A stretch of 47,654 nt of DNA from an uncultured Thermomicrobiales bacterium (GTDB lineage: Bacteria; Chloroflexota; Chloroflexia; Thermomicrobiales; UBA6265). Shown piece after piece: positions 20,829-37,294 of the stretch. The translations under genes and the position numbers were made by a program. The notes beneath the pieces are model-generated. The model made no database searches. It saw only the letters and a list, made by a program, of their open reading frames with translations, and was not told the DNA's origin. How positions within the stretch are numbered: position 1 is the first letter of the stretch; each line of letters opens with the position of its first letter. The stretch is from contig CADCWE010000269.1 of assembly GCA_902806325.1 (NCBI GenBank), forward strand, positions 1 through 47,654. The letters run 5' to 3'.

Positions 20829-21335
20829 ATGGTGACCGTCGCCGATTCGTCGTCCATGCCGGGAGCGATCCGGGTTCGCCCGTTCGACACGGCGGACCGG
20901 CCGTTCTACCGCGCCATCGTCGGCCGTCTCCAGGACGCGGACGCCACGCCGACGCGGGACCCGGCGGTGATGGCCGACTACTTTCGGCGCCGGGCCAACG
21001 GCGAGGTCGAGGACCCGCCCGGCACCGAGACCTTCGTCGCCATTGGGCCGGACGACGCGCCGTTGGGCATTCTGACGCTGACCCCTTCGACCGACTACTT
21101 CACCGGTCACGGTCGGGCCCACGTCGAGATTTTGGTCGTCTCGGCCGAGGCCGAAGGAACCGGAGCCGGGCGGGCGTTGATGGCCCATGCCGAAACGTGG
21201 GCGCGGTCGCGCGGCTTGACCGAGATCGCCCTCGATGTCTTCGCCGGCAACGCCCGTGCTCGCGCCTTTTACGAACGCCTCGGGTTTCGCCCGGATCATC
21301 TGCGGTTGGTCCGGGCGCTCGACCGATCCCCCTAG
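20829..21335 (+). CDS. GNAT-family N-acetyltransferase
   Basis: ATG 20829 (CGGAG 8 nt upstream) gives 168 residues; the longer track start lies inside the M1 promoter region. The acetyl-CoA site is VSAEAEGTGAGRALMAHAE, preceded by VEILV and followed by the C-terminal NARARAFYERLGF motif typical of GNAT enzymes. It transfers acetyl from acetyl-CoA to an amine; the substrate is unknown. It is divergent from the M1 gene and convergent with the next gene, where the two stop codons overlap in CTAG. Confidence 0.87.
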   Translation: MVTVADSSSMPGAIRVRPFDTADRPFYRAIVGRLQDADATPTRDPAVMADYFRRRANGEVEDPPGTETFVAIGPDDAPLGILTLTPSTDYFTGHGRAHVEILVVSAEAEGTGAGRALMAHAETWARSRGLTEIALDVFAGNARARAFYERLGFRPDHLRLVRALDRSP

Positions 21336-22780
21336 CCGGGCGTGAGAGGGTCGGTGCCGTTGTTGACTTCGACGCCGTCGGGCGTGCCGTCGCCGTCGGT
21401 GTCGGCCGAGTACGGATCGGTGCCGATCTGCGACAGCTCGAAACCGTCGGTCAACCCGTCGCCGTCGGTGTCGGTGGTCGTGGGGTCGTCGGGATCGTCG
21501 TCTCCGCCCGCGTCCGGGTCGGTGGCGGGCGGCGGGGGCGGAGCCGGTTCCGCCGGGGCCGGTTCCGCCGGCGCGGGTTGGAACTGGTAGAGGTCCAGGC
21601 CGGCGTCGGGCGCGCCCTCGCCGATGGCGAACACGTAGCCACCGTCGGCCGCCAGCTCGCCACCCGTCGAGGCGTAGCTGTCGAAACCGGGCGAGAGCGC
21701 GGTCAGCAGCACCTGGTAGGTGCCGAACGGGAGATCGGTGAAGACGACCGAGCCTTGGCCGTTCGGCGCGCCGTCGTCGGCGTCGAGTTGGCCGCCGCCC
21801 GGCGTCAAGACGGCCAACTCGAAGCCGCCGCCCGAGGGAGCGCAGACCGCCGGATCCAGGGTCGCCGACGTGATCCCGGCCGGGCAGTCGAACACCAGAA
21901 CCGAAATCGAGCCGGTACCCACCGCCGTCTCGGCCGGAGCCGCGGTCGGCGTCCGGGTCGCCCGCGCGGCCGGCGTCGCGTCCGGGGTTTCCTCCGACGT
22001 GTCCTCGCCCTCACCGGCCAGCAGGTCTTCGGGCACCTCCGGCCCGATCACGCCGACCGCAAACGCCGCCGTCCGGTTCGCGCCCTCGACCTCGACCGCG
22101 GTGATGGTGAACGAGCCGGAGACGGAGAGCGCTTCGCCGGCGGCGAGCGGGATCGGGTCGCCGCCGCCGTTGGCCTGGATCTCGACCGCCCCGGTGAGCG
22201 CGACCGCCAGCGCCGGGCCGCGTCCCTCCGACTCCGGAATCCGCACGACCTCGCCCCGGCGGGCCATATCCCGCACCAGGTCCAGATCCCGGCTGCCGTC
22301 CGGGGGCGCGAAGGGATCGCTGGCGTAGACGATCTCGCCGTCGTCGCCCGGGTCGGTCTCGGCGTCGTCCTCGGCCACCAGCTCCAGCGCCAGGTAGTCG
22401 CCCGGCCCGGCGCCGAGCTTGCCCCGAGCCTGCTCGGCCCCGCCGTCGACGAAGGCGGCCTCGCCGACCGCGACCCGCTCCGGGCGTCCGCCGCCACCGG
22501 TCAGCAACAGGGTCGTCTGCTGCGGCAGCACGAATCCCAGCGGTCGCTCGGCCGGTTCCGCGTCGGTCGCCTCTGCCGCCACGCCGCGGACCAGCCGCCA
22601 GACCACGTCGCCGTCGGCGATCGGAGCGACGCCCTGGGCGATCACCTGGGCGTCGCCCAGGGCCGGCGACGGATCGTCCGGCGCCACCGCCGCGAGGCGC
22701 GCGCTGGCACCCACCAGCGCCAACGCCAGCAGCGCCGCTTCCCCAACCGACCATCGGCGTCGAAGCCAACCCCAAACCAT
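21332..22780 (-). CDS. Secreted hypothetical protein with C-terminal thrombospondin-3-like calcium repeats
   Basis: The 482 residues start with a basic, then hydrophobic segment (~14-33) acting as signal or anchor. A cupin-like beta region follows (PLAAGEALSVSGSFTITAVEVEG) at ~215-245, then a Thr/Pro/Ala-rich linker. A prealbumin-like segment (SISVLVFDCPAGITSATLDPAVC with GTYQVLLTALSPGFDS) carries a Cys pair. The end has Pro/Glu/Ala repeats and two DTDGDGLTDGFE/DTDGDGTPDGVE calcium loops. It probably is a surface adhesive or structural protein. ATG 22780 has GGGAGGG 8 nt upstream. The prealbumin-like fold recalls the repeats of the 1670-aa protein in this window. Confidence 0.75.
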   Translation of the reverse strand: MVWGWLRRRWSVGEAALLALALVGASARLAAVAPDDPSPALGDAQVIAQGVAPIADGDVVWRLVRGVAAEATDAEPAERPLGFVLPQQTTLLLTGGGGRPERVAVGEAAFVDGGAEQARGKLGAGPGDYLALELVAEDDAETDPGDDGEIVYASDPFAPPDGSRDLDLVRDMARRGEVVRIPESEGRGPALAVALTGAVEIQANGGGDPIPLAAGEALSVSGSFTITAVEVEGANRTAAFAVGVIGPEVPEDLLAGEGEDTSEETPDATPAARATRTPTAAPAETAVGTGSISVLVFDCPAGITSATLDPAVCAPSGGGFELAVLTPGGGQLDADDGAPNGQGSVVFTDLPFGTYQVLLTALSPGFDSYASTGGELAADGGYVFAIGEGAPDAGLDLYQFQPAPAEPAPAEPAPPPPPATDPDAGGDDDPDDPTTTDTDGDGLTDGFELSQIGTDPYSADTDGDGTPDGVEVNNGTDPLTPG

Positions 22781-28955: not shown

Positions 28956-31900
28956 CTACTTGATCCCGAACGTCGCGGTGATCGTTTGTCCGGTGCGCGG
29001 GACCGTAATCGTGATACGGTAGGTCGCGGTGGGGTCTGGCAACTGGCGGGCCGAAAGGTTGTAGCTGTAGATCCCGTCGGCGTAGTGGAGGACGCCCGAG
29101 GTGTCGCCGGTACCGGTCGCGATCGGCTCGTTGATCGTGCCAACCGGGACGCCGCCGGACAGAATCGTCACCGTCAGTGTCGGCGCCAAATCCGACGGCG
29201 TGGAGCCGTCGCAGTCCAGGAATTGGACCTTGACCGGGACGTTGCCCTTGTTACTGAACCGGCTCGACCCGTCCTGATCGATCGGCGGCAACACGCCCCC
29301 ACGCGTGATGTCGAAGGAGACCGACACCGACGCGGTGGCGACGCCACCGGACGCGCCGTCGGAAACCGAAACGGTCGCGGTGTACCGCCCGGATTTGGCG
29401 TAGGTGTGAAGGAACGACCGCGACCCCCCTGCCACCGGCGCGAACACTTCCGACGGCGTCCCGTCCCCCCAGGCGATCGATCCGGTCAAGTCGTCGGCGC
29501 CCGGGTCGAAGGCCGAGATCGTCAGGCTGGCGTTGCCAATTCCACACCCCACCGCGGCGGCGTCGAAGTTTGCGGTCGCGGTCGGGGCGACGTTGGCGAC
29601 CCGGACGGTGAACGTCGCGGGGAAGGAGAAGGCTTGGTCTTCGTCCATGACGACGAGTTCGACGGTGTAGTCGCCGTCGTCGGCGTAGCGGTGGATGAGG
29701 GACCCGAGCGCGCCGGGCGCGATCAACGTTGTTCGGTCCGAAGTCCCGTCGCCCCAATTCACGTCCATTGTCCAGGGATCGTCGCGACCCGGATCGGCGA
29801 ACGACCCGAGTTCGAGCGCGGTGTGCGAGCCTTCGTCCGCGGTCTGGTCCGCGGGCGCGGTGACGGTCGGCCGAGCGTTGTAGACATAAACCGCCGTCGA
29901 GCCGAGCGTGACGCCGCCGTCGCCGTCGTCGACCCGGACGTTGACCTGCGGGAACCCGTCGTCGTGGAACCGGCAGCGGCCGGTCGTGGACTCGTAGTTC
30001 AGGTCGTTGTCGCAGTCGTAGGCGATCGTCAGCACGTCCCCCGGGCCGGGATCGGTGGCAAGGACGGCGATCTGGGTCTCGGATCCCTCGTCCACGGAGG
30101 GGGCGACGATGGGACCGAGGGACGGCGCGACGTTGGCGACCTCGACGGTCATCCGGGAGGCACCGGCGGCGCCGAAGCGGCCTCGGACCTCGACCGTCGC
30201 GGTGTAGGCGCCCTCGTCCGGGTAGGCGTGAGCGCGGACGCCGAGCGCGCCGGTCTGGGGCACCTCGAACGTTTCGGTTGCCCCGTCCCCCCACACGACG
30301 GAGACGGTCCACGGGCCGTTGGTGGCGACGTTGGTGAAGGAGCCGAGGTCGAAGCTCTCCAACGAGCCTTCGGCCAGACCTTGGTACGCATCCAGCGCGG
30401 CGACCATCGGGGCCAACGGTGCGTCCGTCACGTCGAGTTCGGTGTGTGTTCCGGCCTTGAATTCGACCGGCACGGGCGACGCCAATGCGTATCCACCCGG
30501 GGCCGTGGTCTCGACGACGACGTATCGGCCCGGACGTTGGGCGACGAACTCGGTGTGCCCGTCTCCGCCGCCGACCAGATCCTTCGGCCCGTCGCAGGCG
30601 CTGGCGACGGTGGCGACCCCGGCGTCGGGCACGCCGTTGGCATCCGCGTCCTGGTGCAGCGCGAAGCAGGCACCAGGAATCGGCGTGGTCCCCTGGTCGG
30701 CCGCGAGTTTGACGACGGTCAGGTCCCCGGTGGTGCTCCGGTGTTCGAGCCTCACCGATTGGTGCCCGGCCAGGAGGTTCAACGGCAACGGGTCGGCCAG
30801 GAGGTACTGTTCGCCGGATTCGGGGTCGTACGGTGCCTTCGTTTCGACCACGATGTACCGTCCCGGCGGGATCTCGTCGATCCACAGCTCCCCGTCATGA
30901 CCCATGTCGTTGAAGGTGAAATCGCATTCGGTGAACGCCACGGGATCCGCGTCACCATCGACCACCCCGTCTCCGTCGCTGTCCCGGCGCAGATCGACGC
31001 AGGCGTCGTGAAGGGTCCGCCTCGGGAAACGGTTGTTCCTAAGGTCGAGGACCAAGAAGGCGTTGCGGGTCGGGTGGAGGACCGTCGTGTTGGCGTGCTC
31101 GCCCGGCAGCAGTGTCACCGGGTGCGGTTCCGCCCGCAGGAGTTCGTGGTAGGACGCCGTGACCGGGATGGTCGTTTCCACCAGGAGGTACGAACCGGGC
31201 GGAACCGGGAACCAAAACTCGGTGATGCCGTCGTCGCCTAGCGGCAGCGAGAAGTCGCAGGCGGACGCAACCGTCGGTTCGTCGGCATCGGGCGCGCCGT
31301 TGCCGTTCGCGTCCCGGCGAAGATCGAAGCAGGCGCCGTAGCCCTTCGAATCGATGTGGTAGTCCGGGTCCACCCGCGACAGCACCGTCAAGGTCGCGGG
31401 GGCGGGATCGAGCACCGCGACCTGCCGCGCCTCCCCGCCCTGGAGCCCCTCGACCAGGATCGGCAGGGCCGTGCCGTGCCCGGCCGGGGTTCGGGTCTCG
31501 ACCAGGAAGTACGTCCCCGGCGCGATCCCCGTAAAGTGCGTCTGCCCGTTGCCACCGACGAGGTCCTTCGGATCCTCCGCGTCGCAGCGGCCGGCGGCCC
31601 TGACGTCGGTGGCGGGGGCGAACACGCCGTCGCCGTTGTCCCGGTGCAGGTCGAAGCAGGCGCCGGGGAGGGCCGCCGATCCCGCGTCGGCGCCGCGCCG
31701 GGTCACGGTCAGTTCCGCCGTCGCCCGGGTGAGGGTGATGTCGAGACGGGTGGCGGCGCCGTTCGCGATTTGGAACCCGCGTGGTGCGATCGGTGCGTAG
31801 CCGTCCGGAGCTGCTTGCTGGCCCAGGATGTAGGCGCCGGGGGCGATGGCCCGTGAGAGGGTCCCGTCGCGCGCGCCGTCGGCGTCGTCGCAGACGAGGG

Positions 31901-33968
31901 CCACGAACGTGCCGGCGCCGCCCTTGCCGTTGTCCAGGTGAACCGTGAAGCAGGCACCGGGGAGGGGCGCGCCGTCCGTGTCGGCCCCGAGCACCGCGAC
32001 CACCAGACCGCCGGGGCGGTCGACCACCTCGTAGCGGGTGGTGGTGTTCGGCGCCACGCGCACTTCGCGCGGCGTGGCATCGAGCAGATAGCCGAGGGGC
32101 GATCGCGTCTCGATCAGGTAGTAGAGGCGCCCCGCGGGCAGCTCGGCGAAGCGCAGGATGCCGTCGGACCCGTCTTCGTCGTCGCACCGGCCACCGCGGA
32201 ACTCGTCGCCCGCCTTCCCGAACATGGCGTCGCCGTCGTCCAGGTAGAGGTCGAAGCAGGCGCCGGGCAGCGGCGTGGTGCCCGTGTCGGCGCCCAACAC
32301 CACCACGTCGAGGTCGCCGTTCGGCGCGTCGAGGACGACGTCGAGGCGGGTGACGGCGCCCTCGACGACCGCGAACGGGCGGTTCGCCATCGGGAGGTAG
32401 CCATCAGGCGTTGACCAGGCCGCCATCACCAGGACGTAGTTCCCGGGCCGGATCGCGGCGTGAAACGAGCCGGGCCGGTCGCCGGTTGCCCCGGACGTTA
32501 CGTGGTCGCCCAACGCCCCGCCGCCGGCGTCGGTGTAGATGTCGAAGACGATCGACCCCGGGAGGGGGCCGCTTTGGTTGCCGGCGCCGTAGACGGTGAC
32601 GATCGCGCCGCCGGGCCGGTCGACGAACGGGACCGACTTCTGCTCCCCGGCGGTCACGGTGACCGCCAACGGTTCGGCCAGAAGGTAGCCGAAGGGGGCA
32701 CTCTCCTCGACCACGAAGTAGGTGCCCGGTGCCCAACCGCCGATCCGGGTCACGCCGTCGAGGACACCGGAGAAGGCGTCGCAGGAACCGCCGAGAGAGC
32801 CGTCGGTTCCAGGGTGGTGTCCGGTGCCGGTGCCGAGGTAAGCCGGGTCGAAGGCGCCGTCGCCGTCGCCGTCGCGATGGATCGCGAAGCAGGCGCCGGG
32901 GAGGGGCGTCTGCCCGGTGTCGGCGCCGAGTTTGGTGATCGTCATCACCGCTTCGGCCGGCAGGACGACGTCGAGCGGGGCGGCCACCCTGGCGACGACG
33001 GTCGCGGGCACGATCAGGTTGGCCGCGTAGCCGGGCCAACTGGTGCGGACGTCAAGGAGATAATCGCCCGCGTCGACGGTCAGATCGATCCGCCCGTCCG
33101 CCGCGTTGTCGTCGTCGTCGCAGGCAGAGGCGATCGCCCCGCCCGTGCCCGCTCCGGGGTAGACGTCGAGGCAAAAATCGGGGAGCGGCGTGACTCCGGT
33201 GTCGTGGCCGTAAACCGTCACGACCAGCCCCGTCCGCGCGATCACCTCGATGGTCACGGTCCCAGACCCCGCCGCGAGGGCGTCGGCAACCGTGTAGGTG
33301 AAGCCGGCGTTGCCGGCGAACCCGGCCTCGGGAACGAAGACGATGGTGGTGTCCTCGATCGTCGCGACGCCGTGGACGACCTCGCCTACGCCCGTGAAGG
33401 CGATTGGGTCGCCGTCCGGGTCGTAGGCGAGGTCGTCGAGGTGGATCCGGATCGCCGTTCCGACCGTCGTTTCGACGGAAAGGTCGCCGGCAATCGGCGG
33501 CGTGTTGGATGTCGGCGGGGGATCGGTCGGCAGCAGGGTTTCCTCCGGCGCGACAATGCCTCCGTCGACGAGGGACGCGGCGGCGACCTGGACCAGCAGT
33601 TCGCCGGTGGCCGTCGCCCCGGCGGCGTCGGCAATCGCGAAGGTGAACCGATCCTCCCCGGCGAACCCTGGCGCCGGGGTATAGGTCGCGGTGCCGTCAC
33701 CGTTATTGACGGCGGCGCCGGAGGCGGCGGGACCGATCGAGGCAACCGTCAACACGTCCCCGGGATCGGGATCCGTGGCGAAGGCGAGCAGGTCCACCAC
33801 AATCGGCGTGTCCTGGACCGTGGCGGTGGCTGGCGAGGATACGATGGTCGGGGCGGCGTTGGACGGTGGTTCTTCTTGGGCCGCGACCGGTGAAGCTAGT
33901 TGCCCCACCAATCCGGCCATGACGGCGACGACGACCAACGCGCGGACTAGCGAGGCGATACGAGGCAT
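28956..33968 (-). CDS. Giant secreted repeat protein: cadherin-like, nine SpaA-like, PKD and PxKF-type domains
   Basis: The 1670 residues start with a signal peptide (~1-30). Two cadherin-like Ig domains follow (~35-245; DGTATYTPAPGFAGEDRFTF and FVPEAGFAGNAGFTYTVADA). Nine SpaA/SdrB-like prealbumin repeats come next (~250-1165), for example LPGACFAIHRDGDGDG. Four PKD/Ig domains (~1170-1550) carry VVWGDGATETF and VNWGDGTSDRT. A C-terminal domain with GNVPVKVQFLDCDG is of the PxKF type. In eight of nine SpaA repeats, Cys residues bracket an Asp/Gly-rich loop that could hold calcium; the third repeat lacks both. There is no LPxTG or C-terminal anchor helix. ATG 33968 has GGAGAG upstream. It probably is a fibrous surface adhesin or S-layer-associated protein. 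Confidence 0.87.
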   Translation of the reverse strand: MPRIASLVRALVVVAVMAGLVGQLASPVAAQEEPPSNAAPTIVSSPATATVQDTPIVVDLLAFATDPDPGDVLTVASIGPAASGAAVNNGDGTATYTPAPGFAGEDRFTFAIADAAGATATGELLVQVAAASLVDGGIVAPEETLLPTDPPPTSNTPPIAGDLSVETTVGTAIRIHLDDLAYDPDGDPIAFTGVGEVVHGVATIEDTTIVFVPEAGFAGNAGFTYTVADALAAGSGTVTIEVIARTGLVVTVYGHDTGVTPLPDFCLDVYPGAGTGGAIASACDDDDNAADGRIDLTVDAGDYLLDVRTSWPGYAANLIVPATVVARVAAPLDVVLPAEAVMTITKLGADTGQTPLPGACFAIHRDGDGDGAFDPAYLGTGTGHHPGTDGSLGGSCDAFSGVLDGVTRIGGWAPGTYFVVEESAPFGYLLAEPLAVTVTAGEQKSVPFVDRPGGAIVTVYGAGNQSGPLPGSIVFDIYTDAGGGALGDHVTSGATGDRPGSFHAAIRPGNYVLVMAAWSTPDGYLPMANRPFAVVEGAVTRLDVVLDAPNGDLDVVVLGADTGTTPLPGACFDLYLDDGDAMFGKAGDEFRGGRCDDEDGSDGILRFAELPAGRLYYLIETRSPLGYLLDATPREVRVAPNTTTRYEVVDRPGGLVVAVLGADTDGAPLPGACFTVHLDNGKGGAGTFVALVCDDADGARDGTLSRAIAPGAYILGQQAAPDGYAPIAPRGFQIANGAATRLDITLTRATAELTVTRRGADAGSAALPGACFDLHRDNGDGVFAPATDVRAAGRCDAEDPKDLVGGNGQTHFTGIAPGTYFLVETRTPAGHGTALPILVEGLQGGEARQVAVLDPAPATLTVLSRVDPDYHIDSKGYGACFDLRRDANGNGAPDADEPTVASACDFSLPLGDDGITEFWFPVPPGSYLLVETTIPVTASYHELLRAEPHPVTLLPGEHANTTVLHPTRNAFLVLDLRNNRFPRRTLHDACVDLRRDSDGDGVVDGDADPVAFTECDFTFNDMGHDGELWIDEIPPGRYIVVETKAPYDPESGEQYLLADPLPLNLLAGHQSVRLEHRSTTGDLTVVKLAADQGTTPIPGACFALHQDADANGVPDAGVATVASACDGPKDLVGGGDGHTEFVAQRPGRYVVVETTAPGGYALASPVPVEFKAGTHTELDVTDAPLAPMVAALDAYQGLAEGSLESFDLGSFTNVATNGPWTVSVVWGDGATETFEVPQTGALGVRAHAYPDEGAYTATVEVRGRFGAAGASRMTVEVANVAPSLGPIVAPSVDEGSETQIAVLATDPGPGDVLTIAYDCDNDLNYESTTGRCRFHDDGFPQVNVRVDDGDGGVTLGSTAVYVYNARPTVTAPADQTADEGSHTALELGSFADPGRDDPWTMDVNWGDGTSDRTTLIAPGALGSLIHRYADDGDYTVELVVMDEDQAFSFPATFTVRVANVAPTATANFDAAAVGCGIGNASLTISAFDPGADDLTGSIAWGDGTPSEVFAPVAGGSRSFLHTYAKSGRYTATVSVSDGASGGVATASVSVSFDITRGGVLPPIDQDGSSRFSNKGNVPVKVQFLDCDGSTPSDLAPTLTVTILSGGVPVGTINEPIATGTGDTSGVLHYADGIYSYNLSARQLPDPTATYRITITVPRTGQTITATFGIK

Positions 33969-34096: not shown

Positions 34097-37000
34097 TCAG
34101 TCGGAACGTCGCGTTTCGGCTGCCTCGGCCGATGCCCCGGCGGCGGCTTCCGTGGGCGGCAATGCCCGTCCGGCGGCGTGTGCGCGGTCGAAGGCATCGG
34201 CGCCGAGCGTATCTCGGGCGGCCGCGTGAAGCTGGGCGATGGTGGCCTCGTCGTTCGGGTCGCGACTCGCGCCGGTGGCGTCCCACAGGGCCGCCGCAGC
34301 GCCGAGCAGTCGCGCCGACCGCTCCCACCGCGCTTCGGCGCCGTGGACCCTGGCCAGCGATTCGAGCGCCATCGCGGCCCGCGCCCGGTCCCCCGATTCC
34401 ACCAGCAGCGAGAGGCTGGCCGCTAGGTTGGTCATCGCGCCTGCGAGGTCGCCGGTCTCGAGCGCGATCACGCCGAGGTTGTGCCGCGCCACGGCCTCGC
34501 CGTTGGGGTACCGCAGGTCGCGGAACAGGGGGATTGATTCCTCGTACCGGGCGATGGCGCGGGGGAAGTCCCCTTGTGCCTGGGCAACCCCGCCGAGGGC
34601 AACAATCGAGATCGCCATCCCTATGCGCAGGTCCAGCTGGCGCTGGACCGTCAAGGCTTGCTCGCAGTAGTCGCGCGCGCGGTCGAGTTCGCCGCGCTGG
34701 ATCATAAAGTTGGCCAGGTTGCCGAGCTGCGCGGCGACATTGGCGCGGTCCCCAAGCGCGCCGAAGAGATCGACCGCCGCCATCCAATAGGTCTCGGTCA
34801 GGGCGAGATCGCCCTGGTAGTAGGCGACGTTGCCGAGGCTGGCGTGGGCCTGGGCGATGCCCCATCGGTCGTGGTGCTCCTCGCTCAGCGCCAACGCTTC
34901 CGCGTGCAGCGCTGTTGCGTGCGCAAAGTCACCTTGCTCGTGGGCGACCTGCCCGCGCGCCGCCAGCGTGCGGGCGAGGCCAATCGGGCGTCCGCCGCTG
35001 GCGCGCCAGGTCGCGATCGCCGCCTCTAGGAGGGGTATTGCCTCCGCGTTGTCGCCTTGATCGCTGGCGAGGTCGCCGGCGACGCGGAGCGCGTTGGCCC
35101 TGGCGTCCGGGTCGCCATCGTGCGCGAGCGCCGCCTTCAGCCTGGCCCGGCCCTCGGTGAGGTACCCGCGGAGCCGCCAGTACCGGTGCAGGGCGGCGGC
35201 CATCCGCAGCGCCACGTCCGCCGTCTCGCGGTCGTCGGCGGCGGTCGCCCAGGACATCGCGGCGCCCAGGTTGGCGTGGTCGCGCTGGAGCCGGTCCAGC
35301 CACGCCGCCTGGCCGGGGCCAACCAGTTCGGGATCGGCCCGCTCGGCCAGATCCAGGAACACCCCGGCGTGGGCGCGCCGCAGCGCGTCGACTTCGTCGT
35401 GCTCGGCCAACCGTTCGAGCCCGAACTCGCGGATCGTCTCCAGCATCGAGAACCGGATGCCGTCGACCGAGCGCTCCCACCGCGCCCAGCTTTTCTCGAC
35501 CAGGGCATCGAGCGCGGCCTGACACGCCGCGGGATCGTCACGGGCCGCGACCTCCTCGCCGCGTTTCCCGTCGCCGGCCCGGCCGATTACCGCCGCCGCG
35601 TCCTCGATCGTGCAGCCACCGACGAACACGGACAGGCGCCGTGCCAGCGCCTGCTCCGGCGCCGAGAGAAGATCGTACGACCAGGAGATGGCATCGCGGA
35701 TGGTGCGCTGGCGGGGCGGCAGATCCCGAAAGCCGTCGGCAAGCAGCGCGAAACGATCGGCCAACCCGGCCAGCATCTGTTCCGGCGACAAGGACCGCCC
35801 GCGCGCCGCGGCCAATTCGAGCGCCAGCGGTAGCCCGTCGAGGCGGGCGCAGAGCTCCGCCACCGTCACCGCGTTGGCGTCGGCGAGCACGAAGTCCGGA
35901 CGAACGGCGCGCATCCGCCGCGCAAACAGATCGACCGCCTCGGACCGCGCCAACGCGGCCAGCGACGGCCACCGCGCTCCCGGTATCGCCAACGGTGGGG
36001 TCGGAAATTCGTGTTCCGCCCGCAGATGCAGCGGCTCGCGGCTGGTCGTCAACAGCGTCAGCCGGGGGCAAACGTCGAGCACCGCGGCCAGATCCGGTCC
36101 CGCCGCGACGACCTGCTCCAGGTTGTCGAGCACCAGCAGCACGGCGCCGTCGCCGATCGTCGCCGCGACCGCCGCCAGCGCCGTTCGCCCCGGGATGTCC
36201 TCGGCCCCGAGCGCCCGGGCCACCGCCGGCAGGACGAACGCGGGGTCACGGACGGCGGCGAGGGCGACGTAGCCGACGCCGTCGTCGAACTCGGCGCCGA
36301 GCCGGCGGGCGGCTTCCTGGGCGAGGCGCGTTTTGCCGACGCCGCCGGGACCCGTCACGGTGATCAGTCGAACCCCCGGTTCCCACAGCAGGTCCGCCAG
36401 CGCCGCCAACTCGCGATCGCGGCCGACCAGCGCGTTCGGCGGCGCGGGCACGGGAGCAAATCGGGTGGCCGGAGACGGCGCCCGAGCGGTGGCTGCGGAC
36501 GTCTTGGTGGGGGCGTCCTGGGCGGCGATCTCGGCTCGCAGCGCCTCCGTTTCTGGATCCGGTGCCACGTCGAGATCGTCTCGTAGGGCGTCCCGGCAGT
36601 GCTCGTACTGGCGGAGGGCGCGGTCGCGCCGCCCGGCGGCGGCAAACGCCCGCATCAGCGCTCGATGGACCGCCTCGTCGGATGGGTCGTCGTTGGTCAC
36701 GCGCTCCAGGTCGGCGACAACCGACCCCGGGTCGCCGCCAGCCAAGGCGTGGTCGGCCAGCGCCAGCACGGCGTCCCGGCGACGCCGCCGCAACCGCTCG
36801 CGGCGGACGACGGCCCATTCGTGCCCCGGTTCGTGCGCCAGCAGATCACCCGCGTAGAGGTCGAGCGCCGCCCGCAGGGCCTCGCTTCGCTCGTCGCCGC
36901 CGGCCGCGGGAACCCGGTCGAGCGCCCGCTCCATCGCGTCGACGTCGGTCCACAGTCCGGGGTCTTCGCGCAGGGCCACGCTGTCGCGGTCGGCTTCGAC

Positions 37001-37294
37001 GTAGGACGAGGCGCGGCCGGACGCCAAGGTGGGCTCCAGGACCCGTCGCAGCCCGTGGAGCGCCTGGTACAACGCGTTAGCGGCGCGCGCCGGGTCGGCG
37101 TCCGGCCAAAGCCGGTCGAGGACCCCCTCCCGCGGCAGCCGGTGCCCCGGCGTGGCGAGCAAGAGCAGCAGCAGCGACCGGGCCGAGCGGCGCGGCCAGG
37201 CGTCGACGCCCAAGACGCGCTCTCCGACCGCGATCCGGACCGGACCGAGCAGGCGGGCGGTTAGTGGCGGAATCGGGTCGGCGTGCGTTGACAT
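34097..37294 (-). CDS. SARP/AfsR-like transcriptional regulator (BTAD, NB-ARC ATPase, TPR)
   Basis: The 1065 residues show an OmpR/PhoB-type winged helix (~10-95; LARLLGPVRIAVGERV, then RLPREGVLDRLWPDADPARAANALYQALHGLRR). A bacterial transcriptional activator helical domain follows (~100-255). An NB-ARC/AAA ATPase comes next (Walker A TGPGGVGKTRLAQ at ~315; LLVLDNLEQV; TTSREPL), then tetratricopeptide-like repeats (~640-1000). The length is close to AfsR-type regulators. It would bind direct-repeat promoters and switch with ATP and partner binding to the TPRs. It lies 43 bp after the FAH gene and 128 bp before the giant surface protein gene on the same strand, so it may control that gene. The ATG has only a weak GGTGG site. 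Confidence 0.9.
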   Translation of the reverse strand: MSTHADPIPPLTARLLGPVRIAVGERVLGVDAWPRRSARSLLLLLLATPGHRLPREGVLDRLWPDADPARAANALYQALHGLRRVLEPTLASGRASSYVEADRDSVALREDPGLWTDVDAMERALDRVPAAGGDERSEALRAALDLYAGDLLAHEPGHEWAVVRRERLRRRRRDAVLALADHALAGGDPGSVVADLERVTNDDPSDEAVHRALMRAFAAAGRRDRALRQYEHCRDALRDDLDVAPDPETEALRAEIAAQDAPTKTSAATARAPSPATRFAPVPAPPNALVGRDRELAALADLLWEPGVRLITVTGPGGVGKTRLAQEAARRLGAEFDDGVGYVALAAVRDPAFVLPAVARALGAEDIPGRTALAAVAATIGDGAVLLVLDNLEQVVAAGPDLAAVLDVCPRLTLLTTSREPLHLRAEHEFPTPPLAIPGARWPSLAALARSEAVDLFARRMRAVRPDFVLADANAVTVAELCARLDGLPLALELAAARGRSLSPEQMLAGLADRFALLADGFRDLPPRQRTIRDAISWSYDLLSAPEQALARRLSVFVGGCTIEDAAAVIGRAGDGKRGEEVAARDDPAACQAALDALVEKSWARWERSVDGIRFSMLETIREFGLERLAEHDEVDALRRAHAGVFLDLAERADPELVGPGQAAWLDRLQRDHANLGAAMSWATAADDRETADVALRMAAALHRYWRLRGYLTEGRARLKAALAHDGDPDARANALRVAGDLASDQGDNAEAIPLLEAAIATWRASGGRPIGLARTLAARGQVAHEQGDFAHATALHAEALALSEEHHDRWGIAQAHASLGNVAYYQGDLALTETYWMAAVDLFGALGDRANVAAQLGNLANFMIQRGELDRARDYCEQALTVQRQLDLRIGMAISIVALGGVAQAQGDFPRAIARYEESIPLFRDLRYPNGEAVARHNLGVIALETGDLAGAMTNLAASLSLLVESGDRARAAMALESLARVHGAEARWERSARLLGAAAALWDATGASRDPNDEATIAQLHAAARDTLGADAFDRAHAAGRALPPTEAAAGASAEAAETRRSD

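Follow-up and report, generated by a model that had tools for sequence, protein, structure and literature searches.

A gene in the window (the whole 47,654-nt stretch of DNA analyzed here, from a Chloroflexota bacterium of the order Thermomicrobiales) encodes a protein with nine SpaA-type units, most of them carrying a pair of cysteines. It raises the question of what holds such units together: a disulfide, a bound metal ion, an isopeptide bond, or some combination of the three.

The stalk gene and its nine SpaA units

The features of the gene outside the SpaA region are listed below. The coordinates, strand, and length of the open reading frame are those given in the earlier note, which proved correct.

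28956..33968 (-), open reading frame of a 1670-aa secreted modular stalk protein (translation and profile matches)
33879..33968 (-), N-terminal signal peptide, residues 1 to about 30, MPRIASLVRALVVVAVMAGLVGQLASPVAA (sequence inspection)
33234..33860 (-), two cadherin-like/Big_9 domains, residues about 37 to 245 (Pfam Big_9, E = 2.4e-27; Cadherin_5, E = 2.1e-24)
29304..30407 (-), PKD domains, residues about 1188 to 1555, with four stretches passing the PKD_4 threshold (Pfam)
28959..29297 (-), C-terminal PxKF-like domain, residues 1558 to 1670, below the curated cutoff (NF038114)

The SpaA profile (PF17802) matched the protein at 160.9 bits (E = 8.6e-48, against a gathering cutoff of 23.1), which places it in that family, and Big_9, Cadherin_5, and PKD_4 also scored above their respective cutoffs. 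The architecture first described for this protein, with cadherin-like, PKD, and PxKF domains and no sorting signal, stands in all parts except PxKF, where the NF038114 score of 22.3 bits over residues 1558 to 1670 falls below the cutoff of 35 and does no more than suggest a PxKF-type C terminus. A VPRTG sequence near the end is not followed by a hydrophobic segment, and therefore the stalk protein has no sorting signal. The protein also scores below the model for LPXTG-anchored major pilins (NF033902, 89.7 bits compared to 95), and its C terminus lacks their hydrophobic segment. We take the gene product to be an exported stalk, presumably located at the cell surface or in the matrix. Directly upstream, in the same direction and separated by 128 bases, lies a gene for a BTAD/AAA/TPR transcriptional regulator (window positions 34097 to 37294, minus strand), which is a possible regulator of the stalk gene. 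A protein with bacterial TSP3 (calcium-type) repeats is encoded a few genes away (21335 to 22780, minus strand).

In the alignment of the stalk protein, the nine SpaA-type units occupy residues about 246 to 1187, as follows.

32940..33233 (-), R1 (residues 246-343), Cys266/Cys283, short loop without calcium pattern (sequence, alignment)
32610..32942 (-), R2 (343-453), Cys360/Cys396, candidate isopeptide triad K346-E421-D450 (alignment, model)
32313..32609 (-), R3 (454-552), both cysteines absent (sequence)
32013..32312 (-), R4 (553-652), Cys571/Cys595, partial Asp/Gly loop (sequence, model)
31713..32012 (-), R5 (653-752), Cys673/Cys693 (sequence)
31398..31712 (-), R6 (753-857), Cys771/Cys795, partial Asp/Gly loop, Arg at the isopeptide Lys site (sequence, alignment)
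31059..31397 (-), R7 (858-970), Cys880/Cys904 (sequence, model)
30729..31061 (-), R8 (970-1080), Cys990/Cys1015 (sequence, model)
30408..30731 (-), R9 (1080-1187), Cys1101/Cys1125, candidate isopeptide triad K1087-E1153-D1182 (sequence, model)

AlphaFold models of R7 to R9 (pLDDT 77.6) and R2 to R4 (pLDDT 70.9), in which some loops, such as the R2 loop at model residues 40 to 51, fall below 50, together with Foldseek searches, assigned the units to the CnaB-type beta-sandwich. The matches were CnaB pilins and the Bacillus anthracis TIE stalk protein, with E values down to 1e-15; the overall TM-scores were low (0.2 to 0.4), which we attribute to differing domain orientation. Fold and sequence family are therefore common to these units and to the SpaA/CnaB-type isopeptide domains (PF17802) of Gram-positive pilins and adhesin stalks, the PDB matches being CnaB pilins and stalks. 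However, the window stalk differs from those domains in its paired cysteines, one opening strand B and the other closing strand C, and in the loss of the isopeptide lysine from seven of nine units.

Paired cysteines and the loops between them

The SpaA region contains 16 cysteines, every one of them within the eight pairs; four others, at residues 1319, 1332, 1475, and 1586, lie in the PKD/C-terminal part. The sequence bears out the earlier observations that eight of the nine units keep both cysteines while R3 has neither, and that each pair closes on Cys2 followed by D (8 of 8). The opening motif assigned to every unit, PGACF-x-L-x-R-D-x-D/N-G-D/N-G, was less general: it is nearly matched in R2, R7, R8, and R9 only, whereas in R6 a single residue is missing, R4 and R5 match it in part, and R1 and R3 do not have it.

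Several features of the pair point to a disulfide. First, the two cysteines are present or absent together, as expected of a disulfide-stabilized domain. Of 429 related units in the bacterial family, both cysteines occur in 388, neither in 36, and a single one in only 5 (Fisher p = 2e-47, a value inflated by relatedness among the units). Such rarity of single cysteines is what a bonded pair would be expected to leave, and it strongly supports a disulfide. Second, no outgroup SpaA unit from Firmicutes or other Chloroflexota has cysteine at both positions, the Cys1 site usually being Thr, Lys, or another residue. Third, in the models of R2, R4, R8, and R9, strand B opens with Cys1 and strand C closes with Cys2, and in R7 the cysteines lie at most one residue away from these positions; the Asp/Gly loop sits between the cysteines and joins the two strands. 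In the prealbumin-like fold, strands B and C are antiparallel neighbors, and therefore both cysteines would face one another at the base of the hairpin. The number of residues between them is 16 to 35 in the stalk protein compared to a typical 8 to 15 in relatives. The disulfide proposed in the earlier note to close the loop is thus plausible, given the all-or-none occurrence and the modeled positions at both ends of the B-loop-C segment, but it would enclose a calcium-type loop in four units only. Such a bond would tie the opening residue of strand B to the closing residue of strand C and clamp the hairpin at its base. In two proteins from other Chloroflexota (L101 and L105), SpaA units have cysteines elsewhere, e.g., near the turn that precedes strand D (TC-x-x-A-TDGSC), which may be a disulfide gained independently.

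Alternatively, the cysteines might form a metal site, for example for zinc, or serve as free reactive thiols, with the acids past Cys2 helping to coordinate the metal. In most units Cys2 is indeed followed by D (C 90%, D 85%), and the usual disulfide oxidases were not found in the stalk's own genome, where VKOR, Thioredoxin_4 (DsbA-like), and DsbB gave no match in an assembly that is 93.6% complete (G000). However, two cysteines per unit, with no histidine partners, offer little for zinc to bind, the protein is exported, and a spacing of 8 to 35 residues suits a hairpin disulfide better than a fixed metal site. DsbA/VKOR are present in relatives that carry Cys-pair units; adjacent DsbA-like and VKOR genes were found in several same-family genomes, e.g., G002, G003, and G030. 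We regard a metal or thiol role as highly improbable. As for the disulfide, the oxidase genes of the stalk's own genome may lie in the portion that the assembly lacks, or a different oxidant or air may serve.

A pattern scan for D-x-[DN]-x-[DN]-G-x-x-D, an acidic pattern of the EF-hand/TSP3 type, found exactly four occurrences in the SpaA region, each inside a Cys pair.

32847..32873 (-), calcium-type loop DGDGDGAFD in R2 (residues 366-374)
31287..31313 (-), calcium-type loop DANGNGAPD in R7 (886-894)
30957..30983 (-), calcium-type loop DSDGDGVVD in R8 (996-1004)
30624..30650 (-), calcium-type loop DADANGVPD in R9 (1107-1115)

A calcium-type loop had been claimed for each Cys-bracketed unit. 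This holds for R2, R7, R8, and R9 but is not general to the cysteine module, since, of the 381 pair units from outside the window, just 1 contains such a loop between its cysteines. The Asp/Gly stretches could instead be ordinary SpaA tight turns of the "TDxDG" type in a D/G-rich protein, with no calcium bound. This would fit the five of nine units without the full pattern (R1 and R3 to R6), as well as the D/N-rich stretch that the family has past Cys2, at the normal turn before strand D (44% D/N compared to 10% between the cysteines). However, the complete pattern of R2, R7, R8, and R9 lies between the cysteines, in another loop, and shuffles of the SpaA region gave a mean of 0.027 occurrences, with four reached in 0 of 5000. 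Simple turns are, in our estimate, an unlikely explanation for these four stretches. Judging from their sequence, the four loops that the disulfides would close, acidic in the manner of EF-hands and TSP3 repeats, probably bind calcium.

Candidate isopeptide bonds and the mechanics of the stalk

A search for isopeptide triads, which the earlier note had called for, yielded candidates in R2 (K346, E421, and D450) and R9 (K1087, E1153, and D1182), where Lys, Glu, and Asp fall on the first, middle, and last strands, and none in the other seven units. A column-based count had missed both because the A-B loop of the window units is two residues longer; they were found by hand in the alignment and checked against the strands of the models. 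With the strand-A lysine missing from seven of nine units, the stalk departs from the CnaB-type rule of a triad in every unit. The usual Lys-Glu-Asn/Asp isopeptide, which links strand A to the last strand, would accordingly be possible in R2 and R9 only.

Among the family units, Glu was present in all 118 of those with Lys, and 102 units, about a quarter, combine the triad with the Cys pair. Mutual exclusivity of disulfide and isopeptide was considered and rejected, as units with the Cys pair had the triad no less often than the others (Fisher p = 0.32, family units). The two are neither exclusive nor measurably coupled in the family. The idea that disulfide and metal stand in place of the isopeptide therefore survives in part: it agrees with the seven units that lack the lysine, but not with the triads kept in R2 and R9 or with the 102 family units that have both.

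These combined units could also mean that the SpaA domains are ordinary ones in which the isopeptide does the work and the cysteines are a minor decoration, the more so as isopeptide and disulfide occur together in published structures (PMC3485203 and PMC10619420). However, the lysine loss in most of the window units speaks against this, and in the family the Cys pair, found in about 90% of units, is more constant than the triad, which only about a quarter have retained. We think it quite improbable that the isopeptide is the main stabilizer here.

The explanation we favor, and consider likely on the whole, is that of an exported stalk of lineage-specific SpaA units with a B-C disulfide, four loops that probably bind calcium, an isopeptide possible only in R2 and R9, and stiffened but stretchable mechanics. 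In CnaB-type units, an isopeptide from strand A to the last strand shields the unit from pulling force. A B-C disulfide would lock only the stretch between the cysteines and leave the first and last strands unlinked, and so it would not make the unit inextensible. It would rather guard the unit against heat, proteases, and fraying of the loop, while the unit would remain extensible under pull. The stalk would then consist mostly of stiffened yet stretchable units, plus two non-extensible ones (R2 and R9).

Relatives, known systems, and a possible two-clamp unit

The stalk's own genome encodes three more proteins with such Cys-pair SpaA units (L011, L012, and L013), as well as two sortase genes. 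Of 31 further genomes in its family, 24 gave matches, whereas the 29 genomes from the order's other families gave none; in a phylum-wide sample nine of 400 genomes matched at 1e-6, two of these nine being from the stalk's family. When the SpaA region of the window was used as a query against genome contigs, no relatives were found; a single unit of a giant protein retrieved one Thermomicrobiales locus and canonical Firmicutes SpaA loci. The whole architecture of the stalk was not seen in any other protein, the nearest being a truncated SpaA-PKD protein (L061 in G011).

Most family genomes with matches contain one giant sortase-type protein (L012, L062/L071, L045, and others). The giants share the Cys-pair SpaA unit with the window stalk, and the pair runs through almost all of their units (L012, L045-L063, and others), but they differ from the stalk in several respects. 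They have 15 to 37 units, almost no calcium loop between the cysteines, and, in most complete ends, a C-terminal PNTGxG signal followed by a hydrophobic stretch and a basic tail. In addition, a pullulanase-type X25 domain (PF22058) opens both giants tested (L071:5834-12871 and L012:4009-11694), which is possibly a carbohydrate-binding head. Finally, triads occur in 17 of the 21 proteins that have 10 or more units, and they are concentrated toward the C-terminal anchor. The shift in mean relative position was 0.41, compared to a standard deviation of 0.04 and a maximum of 0.13 in 5000 shuffles, which overstate independence because units are shared among related proteins. An exception is L050, with triads along most of its length. 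On a weak unit tree, the triad state changed at least 36 times.

SdrD_B-like B repeats (PF17210) are likewise prealbumin-like units with a D-x-[DN]-x-DG loop. Their acidic loop comes after the first strand, whereas that of the window units lies between strands B and C, and the stalk protein scores 20.0 bits against a cutoff of 29.7, outside that family.

The novelty of the disulfides, as claimed in the earlier note, is weakened by published work on SpaA/CnaB-type and other isopeptide domains, Chloroflexota included (PMC3485203, PMC10619420, and PMC12617251). Isopeptides, disulfides, and a structural calcium loop occur in one protein in the pilins FimP of Actinomyces oris and SpaA of Corynebacterium diphtheriae (PMC3485203). 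FimP has two disulfides, C53-C74 at the start and end of loop b1-b2 and C385-C449, with calcium on a separate protruding loop; in contrast, the Cys pair of the window brackets the B-C loop of a repeated unit, and those proteins are polymerizing sortase pilins (PMC3485203). The giant adhesin of Mobiluncus mulieris is a long Ig-like array with isopeptide, ester, and disulfide cross-links, in which the Cys6887-Cys6895 pair of the isopeptide domain starts 45 residues past Lys6842, compared to 12 to 14 here, and other units use ester bonds (PMC10619420). For the phylum itself, a 2025 survey reports disulfides in 42.7% of Chloroflexota isopeptide domains, thus disulfide and isopeptide in one domain; its starting set was proteins with predicted isopeptides, whereas most window units have lost theirs (PMC12617251). 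In the literature we found no account of SpaA in Thermomicrobiales or of a prealbumin-like fold in Chloroflexi, and no description of a SpaA unit with a constant B-C hairpin disulfide, a mostly lost isopeptide, and enclosed calcium-type loops. We see the stalk as a variant, particular to its lineage, of a well-known fold, domains with both disulfide and isopeptide being already known, in Chloroflexota too (PMC12617251).

SpaA/CnaB stalks serve as the classic example of adhesin arms that isopeptide bonds lock and make inextensible, whereas this lineage, in the same fold, has a probable hairpin disulfide as its constant feature and the isopeptide as an option. A tentative view, to which we give somewhat less than even chances, is that this Thermomicrobiales family rebuilt the SpaA unit as a two-clamp module, with a near-universal B-C disulfide and an optional isopeptide that in the giants is mainly proximal to the anchor, and that the window stalk added calcium loops inside the clamp. 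The family offers a natural series within one fold (neither, one, or both clamps) for testing the role of each bond in stability and mechanics, and it suggests that position in the stalk influences which clamp stays. If the module was indeed rebuilt in this way, the stalks of these bacteria would be non-extensible at the base, with an arm that is extensible and sensitive to redox state.
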